64,000 bases of DNA, from the NCBI GenBank assembly GCA_017395425.1, contig JAFPUM010000038.1:1-64000 (forward strand), read 5' to 3'. The position numbers and the translations under genes are program-made. Origin of the DNA: Clostridia bacterium (lineage in GTDB: Bacteria; Bacillota; Clostridia; Oscillospirales; Acutalibacteraceae). Position 1 is the stretch's first letter, and each line of letters begins with the position of its first letter. Under the pieces are notes generated by a model that was not told the DNA's origin, did no database searches, and saw nothing but the letters and a program-made list of their open reading frames with translations. Shown here piece after piece: positions 50,899 to 57,816 of this stretch.

Positions 50899-52089
50899 AT
50901 GATTAATCCCCAGTACAAGCAAATGCTGCAGCACAAATCCATTATCCGCGAACTGAGCGAATACGCCACGGCGCGCGCCAGTGAAATCGGCAGCGAAAAT
51001 GTCTTTGATTTCAGTCTGGGCAATCCCAGCGTCCCCTGCACACAGCACTTCACCGATACCATGATCGAATTGCTTCATACCGCTGAACCCGTCGCCCTGC
51101 ACGGTTACAGCCCTTCTCTGGGTATCGAATCGGTGCGCCGCGCCGTTGCCGACAGTCTGCATTCCCGTTTCGGTGTGAATTATGAAAGCAAGCATATCTT
51201 TATGACCACCGGCGCGGCCGGCGCTGTCGCTCACGCGGTTCGCTGTGTCACCCAGCCCGGCGATGAAGTGCTGACATTTGCGCCGTTTTTTCCCGAATAT
51301 ACCCCCTATGTCAATCAGACAGGTGCCATCCTCAAGGTCGTTCCTCCCCGCACAGAGGATTTTCAGATCAACTTTGAGGCGTTTGAACAAATGCTGACTG
51401 ATAAAGTAGCGGCAGTTCTCATCAATACGCCGAACAATCCCTCTGGCGTGGTCTATTCCACCCAAACCCTCACCGCCCTTGCTGATCTGCTGCGAAAGAA
51501 ACAGGTTGAATACGGTCACGACATCTTCCTCATCAGCGACGAACCATACCGCGAAATTGTCTTTGCGAGCGTGGACGCACCGTATGTGGCTTCCTTCTAC
51601 GACAACACGCTCACCTGCTATTCCTTCTCCAAGAGTCTCAGTCTGCCGGGTGAACGGATCGGCTATGTGGCAGTCAATCCCCGTGCCACTGACGCTGATC
51701 TCATCGCCGTCATGTGCGGTCAGATCAGCCGCGGCATCGGCCACAACTGCCCGCCTTCGATCATTCAGCTCGCGGTTTCCCGCGTTATCAACGAAACCAG
51801 CGATCTGTCCGTCTACGAAACCAATATGAATCTGATCTATGACAAGCTGACGGAACTGGGCTTCACAGTGGTCAAGCCCGGCGGCACCTTCTATATCTTC
51901 CCCAAGGCGCTGGAGGAAGACGCGGGCGCCTTCTGCCGGAAAGCACTGGCGTATGATCTGGTGCTGGTGCCGGCTGATAACTTTGGCTGCCCCGGCTATT
52001 TCCGTATGGCATATTGCATTGACACCGAAAAGGTAAAGCGCAGTCTGCCCGTGCTGGAACGGTTCGTCCGGGAACAATACGGCGTCTGA
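50899..52089 (+). CDS. PLP-dependent aminotransferase, class I/II
   Basis: A 396-residue fold-type I aminotransferase, probably using aspartate or an aromatic or branched amino acid. The PLP-binding Lys is K245 in YSFSKSLSLPGERIGY; N180 in TPNNPSG and D214 in LISDEPYRE contact the cofactor. CGGAGG precedes the ATG. Substrate cannot be set from sequence by eye. It has its own promoter; a 66-base AT-rich gap separates it from the acyltransferase gene. Confidence 0.92.
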   Translation: MINPQYKQMLQHKSIIRELSEYATARASEIGSENVFDFSLGNPSVPCTQHFTDTMIELLHTAEPVALHGYSPSLGIESVRRAVADSLHSRFGVNYESKHIFMTTGAAGAVAHAVRCVTQPGDEVLTFAPFFPEYTPYVNQTGAILKVVPPRTEDFQINFEAFEQMLTDKVAAVLINTPNNPSGVVYSTQTLTALADLLRKKQVEYGHDIFLISDEPYREIVFASVDAPYVASFYDNTLTCYSFSKSLSLPGERIGYVAVNPRATDADLIAVMCGQISRGIGHNCPPSIIQLAVSRVINETSDLSVYETNMNLIYDKLTELGFTVVKPGGTFYIFPKALEEDAGAFCRKALAYDLVLVPADNFGCPGYFRMAYCIDTEKVKRSLPVLERFVREQYGV

Positions 52090-52155
52090 CGGTGTGCGCA
52101 GGTCTTTATAATTTTAATAAACCAAATTTTTTTCATTATAAATCAATCCAAGGAT

Positions 52156-53271
52156 ATGTTTGAGATAGATATCAAATCTTTACAGACGGACAGACAAAGG
52201 ATCGTATGGATTGATTCGTTAAAAGGATTTGCGATTATTTTTGTTGTTTTAGGACACGCACTTTTCGACTTTGCGCATAATCATACGTATCCAACATCCA
52301 TGGATGTGCTTCAATTGGCAAGGCACTGGGTTTATTCATGGCATATGCCGATCTTTTTCATGCTGAGCGGTATCACATTTCGTCTTTCCAAACTGCAAAG
52401 TCATCGACTGTCCACGCGAAAGATCGGTCATTCCACGCTCAACCTGCTTCTCATTTATCTGATCTTTCAAGTGGTGCCAACCCTGTTAAAATTCATCTGC
52501 TCACCGTTCTTCAACAACACGATTAAGCCGTCCCGCTTGATCAAAATGATTTTTTTACCGTCCACCTTCATGTGGTATCTCTGGGTATTGATCATATATG
52601 ATTGGCTTTTTGGATGGATGTATTACATTAAGTTTGAAAATCACGATAAACGGAAAATGCCTTTGTATTTTATCACACTCATGGGCATCAGCTGTCTGGC
52701 AACCTTTTTGAGCAAATCCGTTTTTTTGCATATGCTTTGTCTCTGCAACCTGCTGAGATACGGTGTGTTTTTTGCCGCCGGTGTTTATTGCAAAGAGTGG
52801 AAACCGATACTGCGCCATAAAGCCGTTAGCATTGGCGCTGCCGTCATCGTGATGTTGAATACAGTCTATCTGACATACGCCTATCTGATTGCACATTCCC
52901 GTAATAAATGGATTTACTCTTTTTTCACAATGGCGTTAAATTCGATTGCGGTATGTGTATTGCTGATAACGCTGTTTTCCCGTTTTCCGGCAATCGGAGA
53001 AAACAAGTGGCTGACATGGCTGGGAAAACACTCGCTGATCATCTATCTGCTTCACGTCTACTTTGTCGGAGCGATGCACACAGTCACGGTAAAGCTGCAT
53101 GTCGGTAATCCGGTGGTGGCAGTGACCGCCGCTACACTGATTCCGCTGGCAATTTGCAGCGTGACAGCTTGGATCATACCCAATATTCCCATTGTCCGCC
53201 TGTTGTTCCATCCCATTGCAGCGGTTGATGCCATTAGCGATAAAATACATCAAAAGAAAAACATCCGTTGA
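52156..53271 (+). CDS. Acyltransferase 3 family membrane protein
   Basis: A 371-residue polytopic membrane acyltransferase (AT3 family), with about ten helices. The family N-terminus is visible: WIDSLKGFAIIFVVLGHALF (about 17-36), and a conserved HMPIFFMLSG segment near 62. The family O-acylates surface glycans or other extracellular molecules. The ribosome site AAGG is only 2 bases from the ATG, so the start or expression is uncertain. More AT-rich than neighbours. It ends 25 bases before the lipoprotein/radical SAM pair and could belong to that transcript. Confidence 0.87.
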   Translation: MFEIDIKSLQTDRQRIVWIDSLKGFAIIFVVLGHALFDFAHNHTYPTSMDVLQLARHWVYSWHMPIFFMLSGITFRLSKLQSHRLSTRKIGHSTLNLLLIYLIFQVVPTLLKFICSPFFNNTIKPSRLIKMIFLPSTFMWYLWVLIIYDWLFGWMYYIKFENHDKRKMPLYFITLMGISCLATFLSKSVFLHMLCLCNLLRYGVFFAAGVYCKEWKPILRHKAVSIGAAVIVMLNTVYLTYAYLIAHSRNKWIYSFFTMALNSIAVCVLLITLFSRFPAIGENKWLTWLGKHSLIIYLLHVYFVGAMHTVTVKLHVGNPVVAVTAATLIPLAICSVTAWIIPNIPIVRLLFHPIAAVDAISDKIHQKKNIR

Positions 53272-53296
53272 CTTTTAGAAAGGTGATGATCTCCCT

Positions 53297-53527
53297 ATGA
53301 AGAAAAGCAAATTACTCGCGTCGGTCATGGCGTCTCTCGCAATGACCGGATCCCTGAACGGCTGTTCGTTTGACCCCAGTGAAAATCAGGAAGAAGACGT
53401 CTACGGTCCTCCCATGCCCTACGAAGATCCGGTCGAAGATCCGGTCGAAGAACCAACGGAGGAACAGGAACCCACACCCTCCGCTGATGCTGACACCCCG
53501 CAGCCGTCGCCCGAAGGAGAGAATTGA
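53297..53527 (+). CDS. Small lipoprotein with YGPP motif, likely radical SAM substrate
   Basis: A 76-residue protein with a lipoprotein signal (Lys-rich start, hydrophobic core, lipobox SLNGC; Cys at about 23). The mature part is about 53 residues, nearly all Asp, Glu, Pro, Thr and Ser. It carries the segment DVYGPPMPYEDP (about 35-46), then repeats of (V)EDP/EEP. Tyr residues occur only in this segment. AAAGGTGATG lies before the ATG. The stop is 3 bases before a radical SAM/SPASM gene whose ribosome site lies inside this gene. This suggests a ribosomally made peptide modified on Tyr/Pro/Asp, similar in layout to the rSAM/lipoprotein systems of Bacteroidetes. The modification itself is inference. 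Confidence 0.75.
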   Translation: MKKSKLLASVMASLAMTGSLNGCSFDPSENQEEDVYGPPMPYEDPVEDPVEEPTEEQEPTPSADADTPQPSPEGEN

Positions 53528-53530
53528 CGT

Positions 53531-54634
53531 ATGGCGCTTCCTCTCACCAACGAAGCCAAAAGCACCCAGACAGCCCATCTCCGGGAACTGGCAGCCTATC
53601 GACGTTCCATTCTCCCCCATCCCCCGCTGCGCAATCTGTTTCTGGAGCTCACCCGGCGCTGCAACGAACACTGTCTGCACTGCGGCAGCCGCTGCGGAGA
53701 ATCCGATGCCTCCCGTCTGACCGATGAACTGACAACAGCACAGTATAAAGCACTCCTTGACAGCGTGAAAGCGGAATTTGCCGACCATCTGCCGGAGTTG
53801 GACGTCACCGGAGGCGAGCCGCTGCTGCGTACCGATTTTTTTGATATCATGGGGTATGCCCATGCCCTTGGTTTCCGCTGGGGCATGACCAGCAATGCCA
53901 TTCTGATTGACGGCAAAACGGCACGACGGCTGCGGGAATGCGGTATGAAGACCATCTCGGTCAGCATTGACGGTCTGCCCGCGACCCACGATGCCTTCAG
54001 AAATCGTCAAGGCGCCTATGACGCCGCTATGCGGGGGATTCAGGCATTGATAGAAGTGGGTGGTTTTCAGCATATTCAGGTGACGACTGTTGTCACCCGC
54101 CGCAGTCTTTCGGAGCTGTCGGCTCTGTTTGAGATCATGAAGGCTCTGGAAATTCAATCCTGGCGGGTCATCAGTATGGAACCCATCGGACGCGCCACAC
54201 AGCATCCCGAACTGCTCCTCTCCCCCGATGAATACCGGCGCCTGTTCGACTTTATCCGGGACAAGCGGACAGAAGGCTGGCCGCTGACCTATGGGTGCAG
54301 CCACTTTCTGGGATCGGATTATGAACGGCAGGTGCGGAAATGGTATTTTCTCTGTAACGCAGGCATTTACACCGCAAGCATCATGTCCAACGGTGATATC
54401 GGCGCGTGTCTCGATATCGAGCGTCGTCCGGAATTGATTCAGGGCAACATCCTTCGCGACAGCCTCCGCGATGTATGGGAAAACCGTTTCAGTGTGTTCC
54501 GCGCCGATCTCAGCGAACGCAACAAAACGTGTATGGCTTGTGACGCTTCCGAATTCTGTCACGGCGGCGCCCATCACAGCTGGGATTACGACCAAAACCG
54601 CCAGCAGGTCTGTTTCAAAGGCATATTATTTTAG
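53531..54634 (+). CDS. Radical SAM/SPASM peptide-modifying enzyme candidate
   Basis: A 367-residue radical SAM enzyme. The AdoMet iron-sulfur motif is C44-x3-C48-x2-C51 (RRCNEHCLHC), followed by the GGE motif in DVTGGEPLLR. The C-terminal third is a SPASM/Twitch-type domain with Cys in FLCNAG, GACLDI, CMACDASEFC and VCF; one Cys of the usual seven-Cys pattern seems absent. Enzymes of this type modify peptides (e.g. Cys, Tyr or Pro cross-links). AAGGAGAG lies 7 bases before the ATG, in the end of the lipoprotein gene, giving tight coupling. The substrate is most likely that lipoprotein. Confidence 0.85.
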   Translation: MALPLTNEAKSTQTAHLRELAAYRRSILPHPPLRNLFLELTRRCNEHCLHCGSRCGESDASRLTDELTTAQYKALLDSVKAEFADHLPELDVTGGEPLLRTDFFDIMGYAHALGFRWGMTSNAILIDGKTARRLRECGMKTISVSIDGLPATHDAFRNRQGAYDAAMRGIQALIEVGGFQHIQVTTVVTRRSLSELSALFEIMKALEIQSWRVISMEPIGRATQHPELLLSPDEYRRLFDFIRDKRTEGWPLTYGCSHFLGSDYERQVRKWYFLCNAGIYTASIMSNGDIGACLDIERRPELIQGNILRDSLRDVWENRFSVFRADLSERNKTCMACDASEFCHGGAHHSWDYDQNRQQVCFKGILF

Positions 54635-54640
54635 TTAAAC

Positions 54641-54705
54641 AAAAAGCAGAGGATTGTTTTGGACGGCATTCTTTTGACCATCCAAGTCAATCACTCTGCT
54701 TTTTC
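54641..54705. terminator. Bidirectional terminator between the radical SAM and ybeY genes
   Basis: The A-rich arm AAAAAGCAGAG (54641-54651) pairs with CTCTGCTTTTT (54694-54704), with additional GATTG/CAATC pairing inside. It serves convergent genes. Confidence 0.8.
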
Positions 54706-54724
54706 CTTTTCATTAACTATACAG

Positions 54725-55249
54725 TTAAATCTCGTCAGTAGACTGGGGGACATAACTGCTGTTGCGCGGCAGACCGAGCGAAATCATCACGGTTTCCTCT
54801 TTTTCTCTCATGCGCACAGCCTCCAGACCTCCCTGCTCATGATCGTATCCCAGCAAATGGAGCATGGAATGTACCGTAAGATAGCCGATCTCACGCTGCA
54901 GCGAATGACCGTAGCGCTTGGCTTGCTCCACCGCAATGGGGACGCACAGCACAATGTCCCCCAACTGCTTGGCGCCTGTTTCGGGATTGATGTCATAATC
55001 GCCGTTGACACCCAGCGGGAAGGAAAGGACGTCGGTGGGATAATCATTATGCCGGAATTCCGCGTTAAGACGCTGAATCTCGTCATTATCTACAAATGTC
55101 ACACTTACTTCACAGGGTCCGGCAATCTGTTCCAGCTGCAAAACAGCGTTGCAGCATCTTCTGATCAGCAGACGAATACCGGTGGGTATTCTCACCGCGC
55201 GCTGCTGATCACTGATAATCACTTTTGTTCTGCCAGTAGTATTATCCAT
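54725..55249 (-). CDS. ybeY: Endoribonuclease YbeY
   Basis: A 174-residue zinc endoribonuclease involved in 16S rRNA maturation and ribosome quality control. The zinc motif HSMLHLLGYDH (HxxxHxxxxxH, about 127-137) and DVLSFPLG are present. The frame is open 35 codons upstream, but this ATG overlaps the phoH stop by 8 bases, as in many Firmicutes, so it is chosen. The phoH-ybeY pair is conserved. Confidence 0.95.
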   Translation of the reverse strand: MDNTTGRTKVIISDQQRAVRIPTGIRLLIRRCCNAVLQLEQIAGPCEVSVTFVDNDEIQRLNAEFRHNDYPTDVLSFPLGVNGDYDINPETGAKQLGDIVLCVPIAVEQAKRYGHSLQREIGYLTVHSMLHLLGYDHEQGGLEAVRMREKEETVMISLGLPRNSSYVPQSTDEI

Positions 55250-56237
55250 GTTTCGTTTTGGCCTCCTCACTTTTCTCGTAAGCCTTGATGATATCCTGCA
55301 CGAGCTTATGACGGACGACATCCCGCCCGGTAAAACGTACAATCGCAATATCATCGGTATGATTCAATATGCGGACTGCTTCAGACAGCCCCGATTTTTT
55401 ACCGTCAGGCAGGTCAATCTGGGTGATATCACCGTTGACCACCATTTTTGAACGAAAGCCGAGACGGGTCAAGAACATTTTCATTTGCTCCCGTGAGGTA
55501 TTCTGCGCCTCATCGAGAATGATAAAGCTGTCATCCAGCGTTCTCCCGCGCATATACGCCAGCGGAGCCACTTCAATGGTGCCCCGTTCCAGACAGCGCT
55601 GGTATCCTTCCGCTCCCAGCATATCAAAAAGCGCGTCATAGAGCGGTCGCAGGTAAGGGTCGATCTTGGATTGGAGGTCACCGGGCAAAAAGCCCAGCTT
55701 TTCCCCCGCCTCGACCGCCGGGCGCGTGAGAATGATACGATCCGCCTCACCCCGCCGGAATGCCGCCACTGCCATGGCGACGGCGAGATAGGTCTTGCCG
55801 GTGCCGGCAGGACCGACACCAAACGTAATGGAGTGGGTTTGAATCGCTTCCACATATCGTCCCTGCCCCAGCGTTTTCGGTTTGATGGGTTTGCCCTTTG
55901 ACGTCACGCAAATACATTCATCGGGCATCTGCCGCACTAAGCCTTCCGCGTCGGTATCATCGCGGGTTTCCTCCACAAGAGAGATACCGTACCGTACAGC
56001 CTGTTCATCCAGAATCTCCCCCTGCTTCAGCCGGGCAATCAGAAACCGCACCGTCTTTGCCGCACGACGCACGTCGTCTTGCCGCTGACCCGACAGCTTG
56101 ATTTCTGATCCGCGGGATACAATGTCCACATGGAAGGTATTCTGAAGCAGCCGGATATTTTCATCAAAGCTGCCAAACAAACCGGCCGCAATTTCCGGGC
56201 TGTCAATAAATTCTCCGGGAACGATTTCCTCGTACAA
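55242..56237 (-). CDS. phoH: PhoH-like ATPase
   Basis: A cytosolic P-loop ATPase of the PhoH family, linked to RNA metabolism beside YbeY. Walker A is GPAGTGKT, Walker B is FIILDEAQN, and a KH-like N-terminal segment precedes them. With this TTG start (GAGAGGAG 10 bases ahead) it has 331 residues; an upstream ATG at 56276 gives 344 residues but has a weaker site. It overlaps ybeY by 8 bases. In Bacillus the neighbours are yqfC-yqfD, which lie elsewhere here. Confidence 0.93.
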   Translation of the reverse strand: MYEEIVPGEFIDSPEIAAGLFGSFDENIRLLQNTFHVDIVSRGSEIKLSGQRQDDVRRAAKTVRFLIARLKQGEILDEQAVRYGISLVEETRDDTDAEGLVRQMPDECICVTSKGKPIKPKTLGQGRYVEAIQTHSITFGVGPAGTGKTYLAVAMAVAAFRRGEADRIILTRPAVEAGEKLGFLPGDLQSKIDPYLRPLYDALFDMLGAEGYQRCLERGTIEVAPLAYMRGRTLDDSFIILDEAQNTSREQMKMFLTRLGFRSKMVVNGDITQIDLPDGKKSGLSEAVRILNHTDDIAIVRFTGRDVVRHKLVQDIIKAYEKSEEAKTKHG

Positions 56238-56824: not shown

Positions 56825-57304
56825 ATGAAAAAGACACTGTTTTCAAAATCGTTGTCGTTCATCGCTTGTATCGTGCTGACTGCGGCTATGGCACTGTTTA
56901 CAACCGGTTGCAATGGCAAGAAGAATGTTTCCGATTCGGATGCGCAGGACGCGGTGAGCGCTTCCGTCAGTTCGCAGAACGAGGCAACGTCCGATGTGAC
57001 GGTGCTTGGAGAGGGTCAGACCGCCTTCTCGCTCAAAGTGACCGACGCCGAAGGCAATGAATCTGCTTTTGAAATTCACACGGATCAAAAGACGGTGGGG
57101 GCAGCCTTGCTGGAGCTGGGGCTCATTGCCGGTGAAGACAGCGCTTACGGTTTATATGTCAAAACCGTCAACGGTGTAACGGTAGATTATAATGCCGACG
57201 GAAAATACTGGGCATTTTATATCAATGGCGAGTATGCCATGACGGGGGTTGATTCCACCGATATTACCGACGGCGCCGTGTATTCGTTCAAAGTAGAGAA
57301 ATAA
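56825..57304 (+). CDS. DUF4430 (transcobalamin-like) lipoprotein, predicted corrinoid binder
   Basis: A 159-residue lipoprotein (lipobox TTGC, Cys at about 29) with a Ser/Asp-rich spacer and a DUF4430 domain (about 65-158). That domain has the family pattern of LLELGLIAGEDSAYGLYVKTVNG-type strands and YWAFYINGEYA. DUF4430 resembles the C-terminal half of eukaryotic transcobalamin and intrinsic factor. It is under the cobalamin riboswitch and its stop overlaps the start of an ECF S-component (TAATG). The likely role is surface capture of B12; this is inference from context. Confidence 0.88.
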   Translation: MKKTLFSKSLSFIACIVLTAAMALFTTGCNGKKNVSDSDAQDAVSASVSSQNEATSDVTVLGEGQTAFSLKVTDAEGNESAFEIHTDQKTVGAALLELGLIAGEDSAYGLYVKTVNGVTVDYNADGKYWAFYINGEYAMTGVDSTDITDGAVYSFKVEK

Positions 57305-57816
57305 TGAAGCTCAGCGGAAAAGAAATCGCTGTGTTTGGTATGCTGGGCGCATTGATGTATGCCTCCAAATTGGCTTTGGAATTCCTGCCAAACGTCCATT
57401 TGCTTGGCGTGTTTACCATTTCAATGACGATTGTTTACAGAAAAAAAGCACTCTATCCGATTTATATTTTCGTTTTTCTGCTGGGATTGTTTTCCGGATT
57501 TGCAGTCTGGTGGATTCCCCATCTGTATCTCTGGACAATCCTTTGGGGAGCCGCTATGCTGCTGCCGAAAAACATACCGGATAAATGGAAACCCATCGTC
57601 TATATGTGCCTTTGCTCCGCTCACGGATTCCTTTATGGCACCTTATATGCGCCTTCTCAGGCATTGTTTTTCGGCTTGAACTTTCACGCAACGGTCGCGT
57701 GGATCATCGCCGGTCTGCCATGGGACGCTGTGCATGGCATTAGCAATTTCTTCTGCGGCATTTTAATCTGCCCGCTGATCATGATACTCCGGCGTTCCGA
57801 AAAACAAATTTTATAA
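57304..57816 (+). CDS. ECF transporter S-component, predicted cobalamin-specific
   Basis: A 170-residue membrane protein with about six helices and the layout of ECF substrate-binding S-components: an amphipathic start with GMLGALMYASK and a C-terminal ILICPLIMILRR. It lies behind the riboswitch and is coupled to the DUF4430 lipoprotein (1-base overlap), so cobalamin or its precursor is the likely substrate, as predicted for the CblT-type S-components. The shared EcfA/EcfT module is not in this window and must be elsewhere. Confidence 0.85.
   Translation: MKLSGKEIAVFGMLGALMYASKLALEFLPNVHLLGVFTISMTIVYRKKALYPIYIFVFLLGLFSGFAVWWIPHLYLWTILWGAAMLLPKNIPDKWKPIVYMCLCSAHGFLYGTLYAPSQALFFGLNFHATVAWIIAGLPWDAVHGISNFFCGILICPLIMILRRSEKQIL

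Follow-up and report, generated by a model that had tools for sequence, protein, structure and literature searches.

A clostridial VYGPP lipoprotein and its radical SAM/SPASM neighbor as a candidate peptide-modification system, with a zinc-ribbon counterpart

In the 64,000-nucleotide stretch of DNA analyzed here (the window), a small lipoprotein is encoded directly upstream of a radical SAM (rSAM)/SPASM enzyme. The two genes are paired and co-inherited among relatives, a Tyr-Gly site in the lipoprotein is conserved, and the enzyme falls in one clade with the PlpX spliceases. With slightly more confidence than doubt, we interpret lipoprotein and enzyme as a two-gene post-translational modification system, which the enzyme's placement links to a clade whose known reaction is distinctive. 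A preliminary description of the locus had already proposed the coupling and the candidate site; the features beyond it are an [FY][DE]PxxN element at positions −11 to −6 from the site tyrosine, tandem copies of the site, a zinc-ribbon partner beside a paralogous enzyme, and a link to X-Tyr-Gly spliceases.

The lipoprotein (Table 1) begins with MKKSKLLASVMASLAMTGSLNGC followed by SFDPSENQEEDVYGPPMPYEDP. Its signal peptide and Leu-Asn-Gly-Cys lipobox were called by inspection, with the Cys at residue 23; this Cys is invariant in an alignment of 21 lipoproteins of the genus, so that the window protein qualifies as a bacterial lipoprotein. As first described, it precedes the rSAM gene by three bases (next ATG at 53531, same strand), Pfam confirms the downstream product as a SPASM rSAM enzyme, and the only two tyrosines of the lipoprotein, Tyr36 and Tyr42, both lie inside the motif then put forward. 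The wording that the mature protein is almost only Asp, Glu, Pro, Thr, and Ser was a little strong, these making up 37 of its 53 residues. Pfam recognized no folded domain in it, and neither it nor nine diverse relatives matched any NCBIfam or Pfam family above cut-off. An acyltransferase-3 gene (52156-53271) lies upstream of the pair and ybeY (54725-55354) downstream on the opposite strand; promoter and terminator scans of 52000-54900 returned about as many sites as scans of shuffled sequence. Farther along the window (56825-57816), there is a 159-aa lipoprotein, which served as control in the comparison of signal-peptide identity below; immediately after it comes a 170-aa membrane protein, by eye similar to an ECF-transporter S component.

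Table 1. Features of the lipoprotein/rSAM locus, in window coordinates.
Feature	Position	Strand	Evidence
Lipoprotein ORF, 76 aa, predicted substrate	53297..53527	+	ORF translation, alignment
Signal peptide through lipobox Cys23 (LNG-C)	53297..53365	+	Conserved in genus lipoproteins
Extended target site (predicted), F25-D-P-S-E-N30-Q-E-E-D-V35-Y36-G37-P38-P39	53369..53413	+	Alignment (n = 21), 201 distinct site windows
Radical SAM/SPASM enzyme, 367 aa, type A	53531..54634	+	NCBIfam, Pfam, alignment, tree
Radical SAM [4Fe-4S] motif C44-x3-C48-x2-C51, then clade residues G52-S53	53660..53683	+	Alignment
SPASM region (auxiliary clusters), Cys 256, 275, 293, 334, 337, 343, 361	54296..54613	+	Alignment (n = 38), Pfam

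Pfam matches in the enzyme were to PF04055 (1.4e-19) and PF13186 (2.3e-7), and the three rSAM cysteines (44, 48, and 51) and the seven of the SPASM region show no variation across 38 aligned relatives, the window enzyme being one of them. A phmmer search of the PDB returned distant rSAM enzymes only, with cytosylglucuronate decarboxylase at the top (3.6e-17).

We compared 60 genomes, the window's own and 59 relatives, of which 18 (its own counted) belong to the same genus. Close homologs of the window enzyme (68–91% identity), here called type A, were confined to the genus in this sample, occurring in 13 of the 18 genomes and in none outside. Immediately upstream of the enzyme, every one of the 13 loci encodes either a single small lipoprotein or a pair of them, and VYGPP is present in all 21. 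A profile search of the 18 genomes found the lipoprotein in the same 13 (13 with both, 5 with neither); an extra match in G017 spans profile positions 2–19 only, which is part of the signal peptide. Enzyme and lipoprotein are both absent from G004, G007, G009, G016, and G017, although absence is less certain here than presence elsewhere because these genomes are 78–98% complete. The pairing of lipoprotein and type-A enzyme is thus strongly supported as real. Aligning the small upstream ORFs of homologs, as had been suggested, showed that the 21 lipoproteins keep the signal peptide, N30, V35, Y36, G37, P38, and P39, whereas most else past the lipobox varies; the 29 VYGPP copies in them draw on four Val, two Tyr, four Gly, and four Pro codons. 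Their signal peptides are 79% identical vs. 38% for the mature part. We rejected this conservation as proof of a leader role, since the unrelated control lipoprotein of the same genus is likewise 84% identical in its signal peptide (vs. 72% in its mature part). Only the contrast between two tandem lipoprotein types (signal peptide 78% vs. 23% identity) is suggestive of a possible function as recognition leader.

A scan of 84,980 species genomes gave 92 type-A relatives, and the 80 listed of these 92 were analyzed (51–91% identity); this wider set shares species with several genomes of the genus set, and the two are not independent. Record titles among the 80 name Oscillospiraceae/Ruminococcus, Lachnospiraceae (Butyrivibrio), Erysipelotrichaceae, Coriobacteriia, one Alistipes, and one Spirochaetales, and many mention rumen, caecum, ileum, or faeces. 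The enzymes labeled Alistipes (L049) and Spirochaetales (L099) were placed among clostridial type A in trees, and their labels may reflect misbinned contigs. To be scored as a YGxP ORF, a reading frame had to share the enzyme's strand, lie no more than 3 kb away, and contain a YGPP preceded by a lipobox, two YGPP, or a YGxP that closely follows a lipobox. Such an ORF is found near the enzyme in 78 of the 80 listed relatives (of 92), in 74 with a lipobox recognized by pattern, and the two remaining loci carry variants, a downstream lipoprotein with CAYGPG (L091) and a lipoprotein with HYASPP (L096). The preliminary description had advised looking for homologs without a YGPP lipoprotein nearby; that search turned up these two variants and the type-B enzymes described below, whose zinc-ribbon partner has the same site. 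A YGPP lipoprotein-like ORF was present at 0 of 22 control loci, of which 19 surround other rSAM genes and three, L138–L140, are not known to adjoin any, and in 2 of 1600 codon-block shuffles of the DNA upstream of the 80 relatives. The YGxP ORF stops no more than 120 bases ahead of, or 60 bases past, the point where the enzyme match begins in 69 loci. The 94 YGxP ORFs comprise 63 with two to seven YGPP copies, 27 with one, and four with none (YGSP and similar); ORFs with two to seven copies of the site occur in 59 of the 80 listed relatives (of 92).

Two further kinds of ORF were noted at these loci. At L039:2683-3123, upstream of two lipoproteins, an ORF with four YGPP copies and no lipobox evident at its listed start is possibly a third substrate. 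Larger lipoproteins of about 205–257 residues, with YGxP (YASP in L096), lie downstream of the rSAM gene in L044, L045, L046, L095, and L096; some form tandem paralogs, and the region after the site is possibly folded.

An alternative explanation of the pairing is that the enzyme has another target and the lipoprotein simply shares its transcript, with YGPP acting as a protein-interaction or surface motif, a use that a Pro-rich YGPP could serve. However, the two genes remain together although the YGxP ORF changes sides, being upstream of the enzyme in 71 of the 78 loci and downstream only in the other 7. The site itself extends to [FY][DE]PxxNxxxxVYGPP. In 201 distinct site windows, F or Y occupies −11 in 69%, D or E −10 in 50%, P −9 in 58%, and N −6 in 61%, and in the core V occupies −1 in 79% and P +2 in 97% (the windows were gathered by YGxP, and Y, G, and the last P are thus fixed by construction). 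For the element [FYW][DE]P, 73 of the 201 have the start at −11, and no other register between −14 and −6 accounts for more than two. Variable positions include −2 (D 30%, C 19%, T 11%, P 8%) and +4 to +8.

The same address recurs beside a paralogous enzyme. The window's own genome encodes a second rSAM, type B, 48% identical to the window enzyme (G000:C46:10839-11903), with no lipoprotein upstream. A zinc-ribbon protein (Pfam Zn_Ribbon_1, DZR) follows type B in 14 of 15 fetched loci (L156, which is G000:C46:7000-16000, and L157–L170), its ORF overlapping the type-B stop or starting at most 17 bases on in 13 of them and 339 bases on in L161; in the fifteenth, L160, the contig ends 24 bases after the rSAM stop. 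All 14 proteins carry the segment GEGAFEPYQNLMQCIYGPMP or similar, with the pattern FEPYQxxMQCIYGP or PYQxxMxCIYGP. The paralog's zinc-ribbon site, FEPYQNLMQCIYGP, has the same spacing as the lipoprotein site, the common arrangement being [FY](−11) x P(−9) x x [NQE](−6) x x x x I Y G P, and PYQ and CIYGP are invariant in the zinc-ribbon proteins of 16 genomes. Type B and the zinc-ribbon protein (E <= 3e-40) occur together in 16 of the 18 genus genomes, and neither was found in the other two, G009 (83% complete) and G014 (76% complete). Two weak matches in other genera are generic zinc ribbons without the YG segment. The type-B match of G005 (C62:6841-7849) is in separate pieces, one of which contains an in-frame TGA, and the zinc-ribbon partner is still adjacent. 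A scan of viral contigs returned one relative, a type-A-like rSAM (L141, 60%; locus L141:2970-5047), on a 27.7-kb contig of a viral collection that could be viral or host DNA; upstream of it, a tandem zinc-ribbon-like ORF (YGSP) contains FEPYENIANPIYGSP and FEPYENIVYCLYGSP, with all its Pfam zinc-ribbon matches below cut-off.

Two unrelated host proteins with one address at the same spacing, each beside one of two paralogous enzymes, provide the best support for the YG site as target. Together with the co-inheritance of each pair, without exception across the 18 genus genomes, they argue against co-transcription only, which we consider very unlikely. That the YG site is modified, as the preliminary description had supposed for the lipoprotein, appears highly probable.

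As to family, the subfamily-model search proposed earlier placed the window enzyme closest to TIGR04133, at 265.5 bits and 110 bits ahead of the next model but under the cut-off of 425; AhbD (TIGR04545, 155 bits), TIGR04053 (135), TIGR04103 (134.2), and MftC (128) followed. On TIGR04133, the relatives L109 and L052 and the type-B enzyme L002 score 262–271 bits, vs. 608 for the Parabacteroides and 451 for the Treponema enzyme. The companion lipoprotein model, TIGR04134 (cut-off 39.8 bits), matched neither the window lipoprotein nor nine diverse relatives, nothing in the window's own genome, where the search controls also matched nowhere, and nothing in four locus genomes; three matches in 79 genomes around G060 were all below cut-off and in ORFs of 825–2400 residues.

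In a tree, types A and B, TIGR04133, and the PlpX/GDL group lie on one side of a branch with support of 100/97. The outgroup comprised eight rows (four AhbD-like, NirJ, TIGR04347, a Paenibacillus rSAM, and MftC) and type A 20 (the window, 18 of the 80 relatives, and L141); 11 rows with long branches or a far position had been left out (L019–L026, L030, PqqE, and TIGR04053). Types A, B, and TIGR04133 form one group (99/98), with the PlpX group beside rather than around that of the window, and a quick tree with more outgroups and 41 type-A rows (the window and 40 of the 80) gave the same grouping (SH-aLRT 88). HC-G52-S53 (HCGS at the third Cys) and W211 are present in 33 of 33 clade rows, each being found in at most one of the eight outgroup rows. 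AhbD, despite its second-ranked score, was rejected as closest kin, as it falls outside the clade; L171 alone of the four AhbD-like rows passes the AhbD cut-off.

The window pair may thus be a clostridial branch of the Bacteroidetes TIGR04133/TIGR04134 system with the same function, a reading that does not exclude our main explanation and for which the case is evenly balanced. The lead of TIGR04133 over other models and the common group in the tree speak for it, as does the layout. An rSAM/SPASM enzyme next to a small lipoprotein with YG-x-P near the lipidated Cys is seen in the window and in three loci that were fetched, those in Parabacteroides (CEYGSP) and Treponema (CYGMP) plasmids, both annotated, and in Phocaeicola (CEYGTP), unannotated. 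However, the window enzyme is 160 bits under the cut-off and its lipoprotein matches no model. The window branch has VYGPP, tandem in many relatives, on an acidic stalk with the upstream [FY][DE]PxxN element, whereas the Parabacteroides and Treponema lipoproteins have a single YG-x-P site, no acidic repeats, and a carboxypeptidase-regulatory-like match (below the Pfam cut-off in Treponema). The kinship with this system suggested earlier stands in the tree, but not as membership of either protein in the established models.

The clade also includes enzymes paired with other peptides, and X-Y-G recurs in partner proteins across it. TIGR04103 (nif11-class peptide radical SAM maturase 3), which we take to be the InterPro entry of PlpX, has a cut-off of 725 bits; the Nostoc reference reaches 853, and the score of the window enzyme, well short of this, is no better than that on TIGR04053 and below that on AhbD. 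PMC10533398, PMC11002830, and PMC10373908 describe PlpXY as acting at X-Tyr-Gly, and the latter two report excision of tyramine (C8H9NO), with resulting residues that can inhibit proteases. PlpXY and the window enzyme share the clade, HCGS, and W211, and the window partner offers D-V-Y-G-P-P; the Nostoc enzyme adjoins a Nif11 precursor ending IALYGLPPELF, whose core LYGLPPELF resembles VYGPPEDF of the present system. Whereas PlpXY is described in PMC11002830 with a Nif11 or nitrile-hydratase-like leader and a PlpY partner, the substrate here bears a signal peptide and no PlpY-like gene was found. No PlpY/RRE-like partner is conserved among the neighbors of the 80 loci (ORFs of at least 60 codons compared), where, ORFs overlapping the rSAM gene aside, the lipoprotein is the sole neighbor family in more than 9 loci. 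On an Agathobacter rectalis plasmid (L145:2719-3016), an unannotated mini-ORF ending FGPVMYGTGVRM (VMYGTG) sits just before a PlpX-like rSAM and is a candidate splicease precursor in a human gut species. The GDL-motif peptide maturases (TIGR03913), paired with DUF1843 peptides, belong to the same clade, and one Azospirillum DUF1843 peptide has RPYGPA; unlike the lipoproteins, these substrates lack a signal peptide (by eye) and do not all keep YG. Two of three DUF1843 peptides beside one GDL-type relative have YA for YG, and one of two beside another is without an N-terminal YG. Given YA in these peptides and YASPP in L096, the glycine is not absolute across the clade.

Since the characterized clade member PlpXY excises tyramine and VYGPP fits X-Tyr-Gly, tyramine excision is the favored reaction. 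By analogy with PlpXY, we hold it to be about an even chance; the low model scores, the lack of an evident PlpY-like partner, and YA in the DUF1843 peptides and L096 make splicease chemistry less certain. SPASM enzymes are chemically diverse, and another rSAM reaction at the same YG site, such as a Tyr-centered crosslink or cyclophane, a thioether from Cys(−2), epimerization at Val or Tyr, or MftC-like bonding of the two residues with no excision, is a serious though rather less probable alternative. All 16 zinc ribbons have Cys at −2, as do 19% of the site windows and the lipoproteins of Parabacteroides and Phocaeicola. The mycofactocin enzyme MftC, also rSAM/SPASM, acts on Val-Tyr and joins the two residues after decarboxylation (PMC8326336), and its precursor ends in Val-Tyr; its model gives 128 bits on the window enzyme, and in a midpoint-rooted tree it is the outgroup row nearest the clade. 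Against this, MftC falls outside the clade (100/97), and with −2 and +4 to +8 variable, few candidates are left beyond V-Y-G-P-P and N(−6) for a residue to which a crosslink would be obligatory.

In the mechanism that we propose, with tyramine excision as its chemistry, the enzyme would recognize the cytosolic pre-lipoprotein at [FY]-[DE]-P-x-x-N-x4-V-Y-G-P-P and modify it at Val-Tyr-Gly before export. The product would then be exported, lipidated at Cys23, and displayed on the acidic stalk, which is probably disordered. A twin-arginine-type signal peptide (TRRxF), present in 14 of the 16 loci counted as coriobacterial by title (one titled only Actinomycetes), would suit a protein whose modification in the cytosol precedes its export, if the motif indeed denotes Tat dependence. 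A surface α-ketoamide could serve as an electrophile, e.g., in an anchored protease inhibitor. That role is a guess, and an unlikely one, though the most concrete on offer for type A; it is ill-suited to type B, whose zinc-ribbon substrate is without an evident signal peptide.

The pairing of an rSAM enzyme with a YG lipoprotein is of a kind already known as annotation. Among the titles and abstract beginnings listed in a literature search, none showed a YGPP lipoprotein or its repeat-bearing branch, a splicease acting on a lipoprotein, the extended address, the pair with the zinc ribbon, or the splicease link, the splicease survey of Scott et al. 2022 being outside the reach of that search. 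The earlier view that a clostridial version with an acidic Pro-rich tail is less explored is borne out. That survey (Chem) is said to report wide use of ribosomal β-amino acids, and it may already include these proteins.

We tentatively suggest, while leaning somewhat toward doubt, a broader view in which a widespread gut-bacterial splicease clade rewrites the backbones of ordinary cell proteins rather than of a secreted natural product. Type A would place one to seven tandem α-keto-β-amino acids on surface lipoproteins and its sister enzyme one between zinc-ribbon knuckles, through the shared address [FY]xPxx(N/Q)xxxx(V/I)YGP. Tyramine excision would show as a loss of ∼135.07 Da per VYG. If the view is true, surface lipoproteins and a zinc-ribbon protein would routinely contain non-standard backbones in many bacteria of the rumen and gut, and reactive ketoamides could be installed with the 15-residue address as a portable tag.
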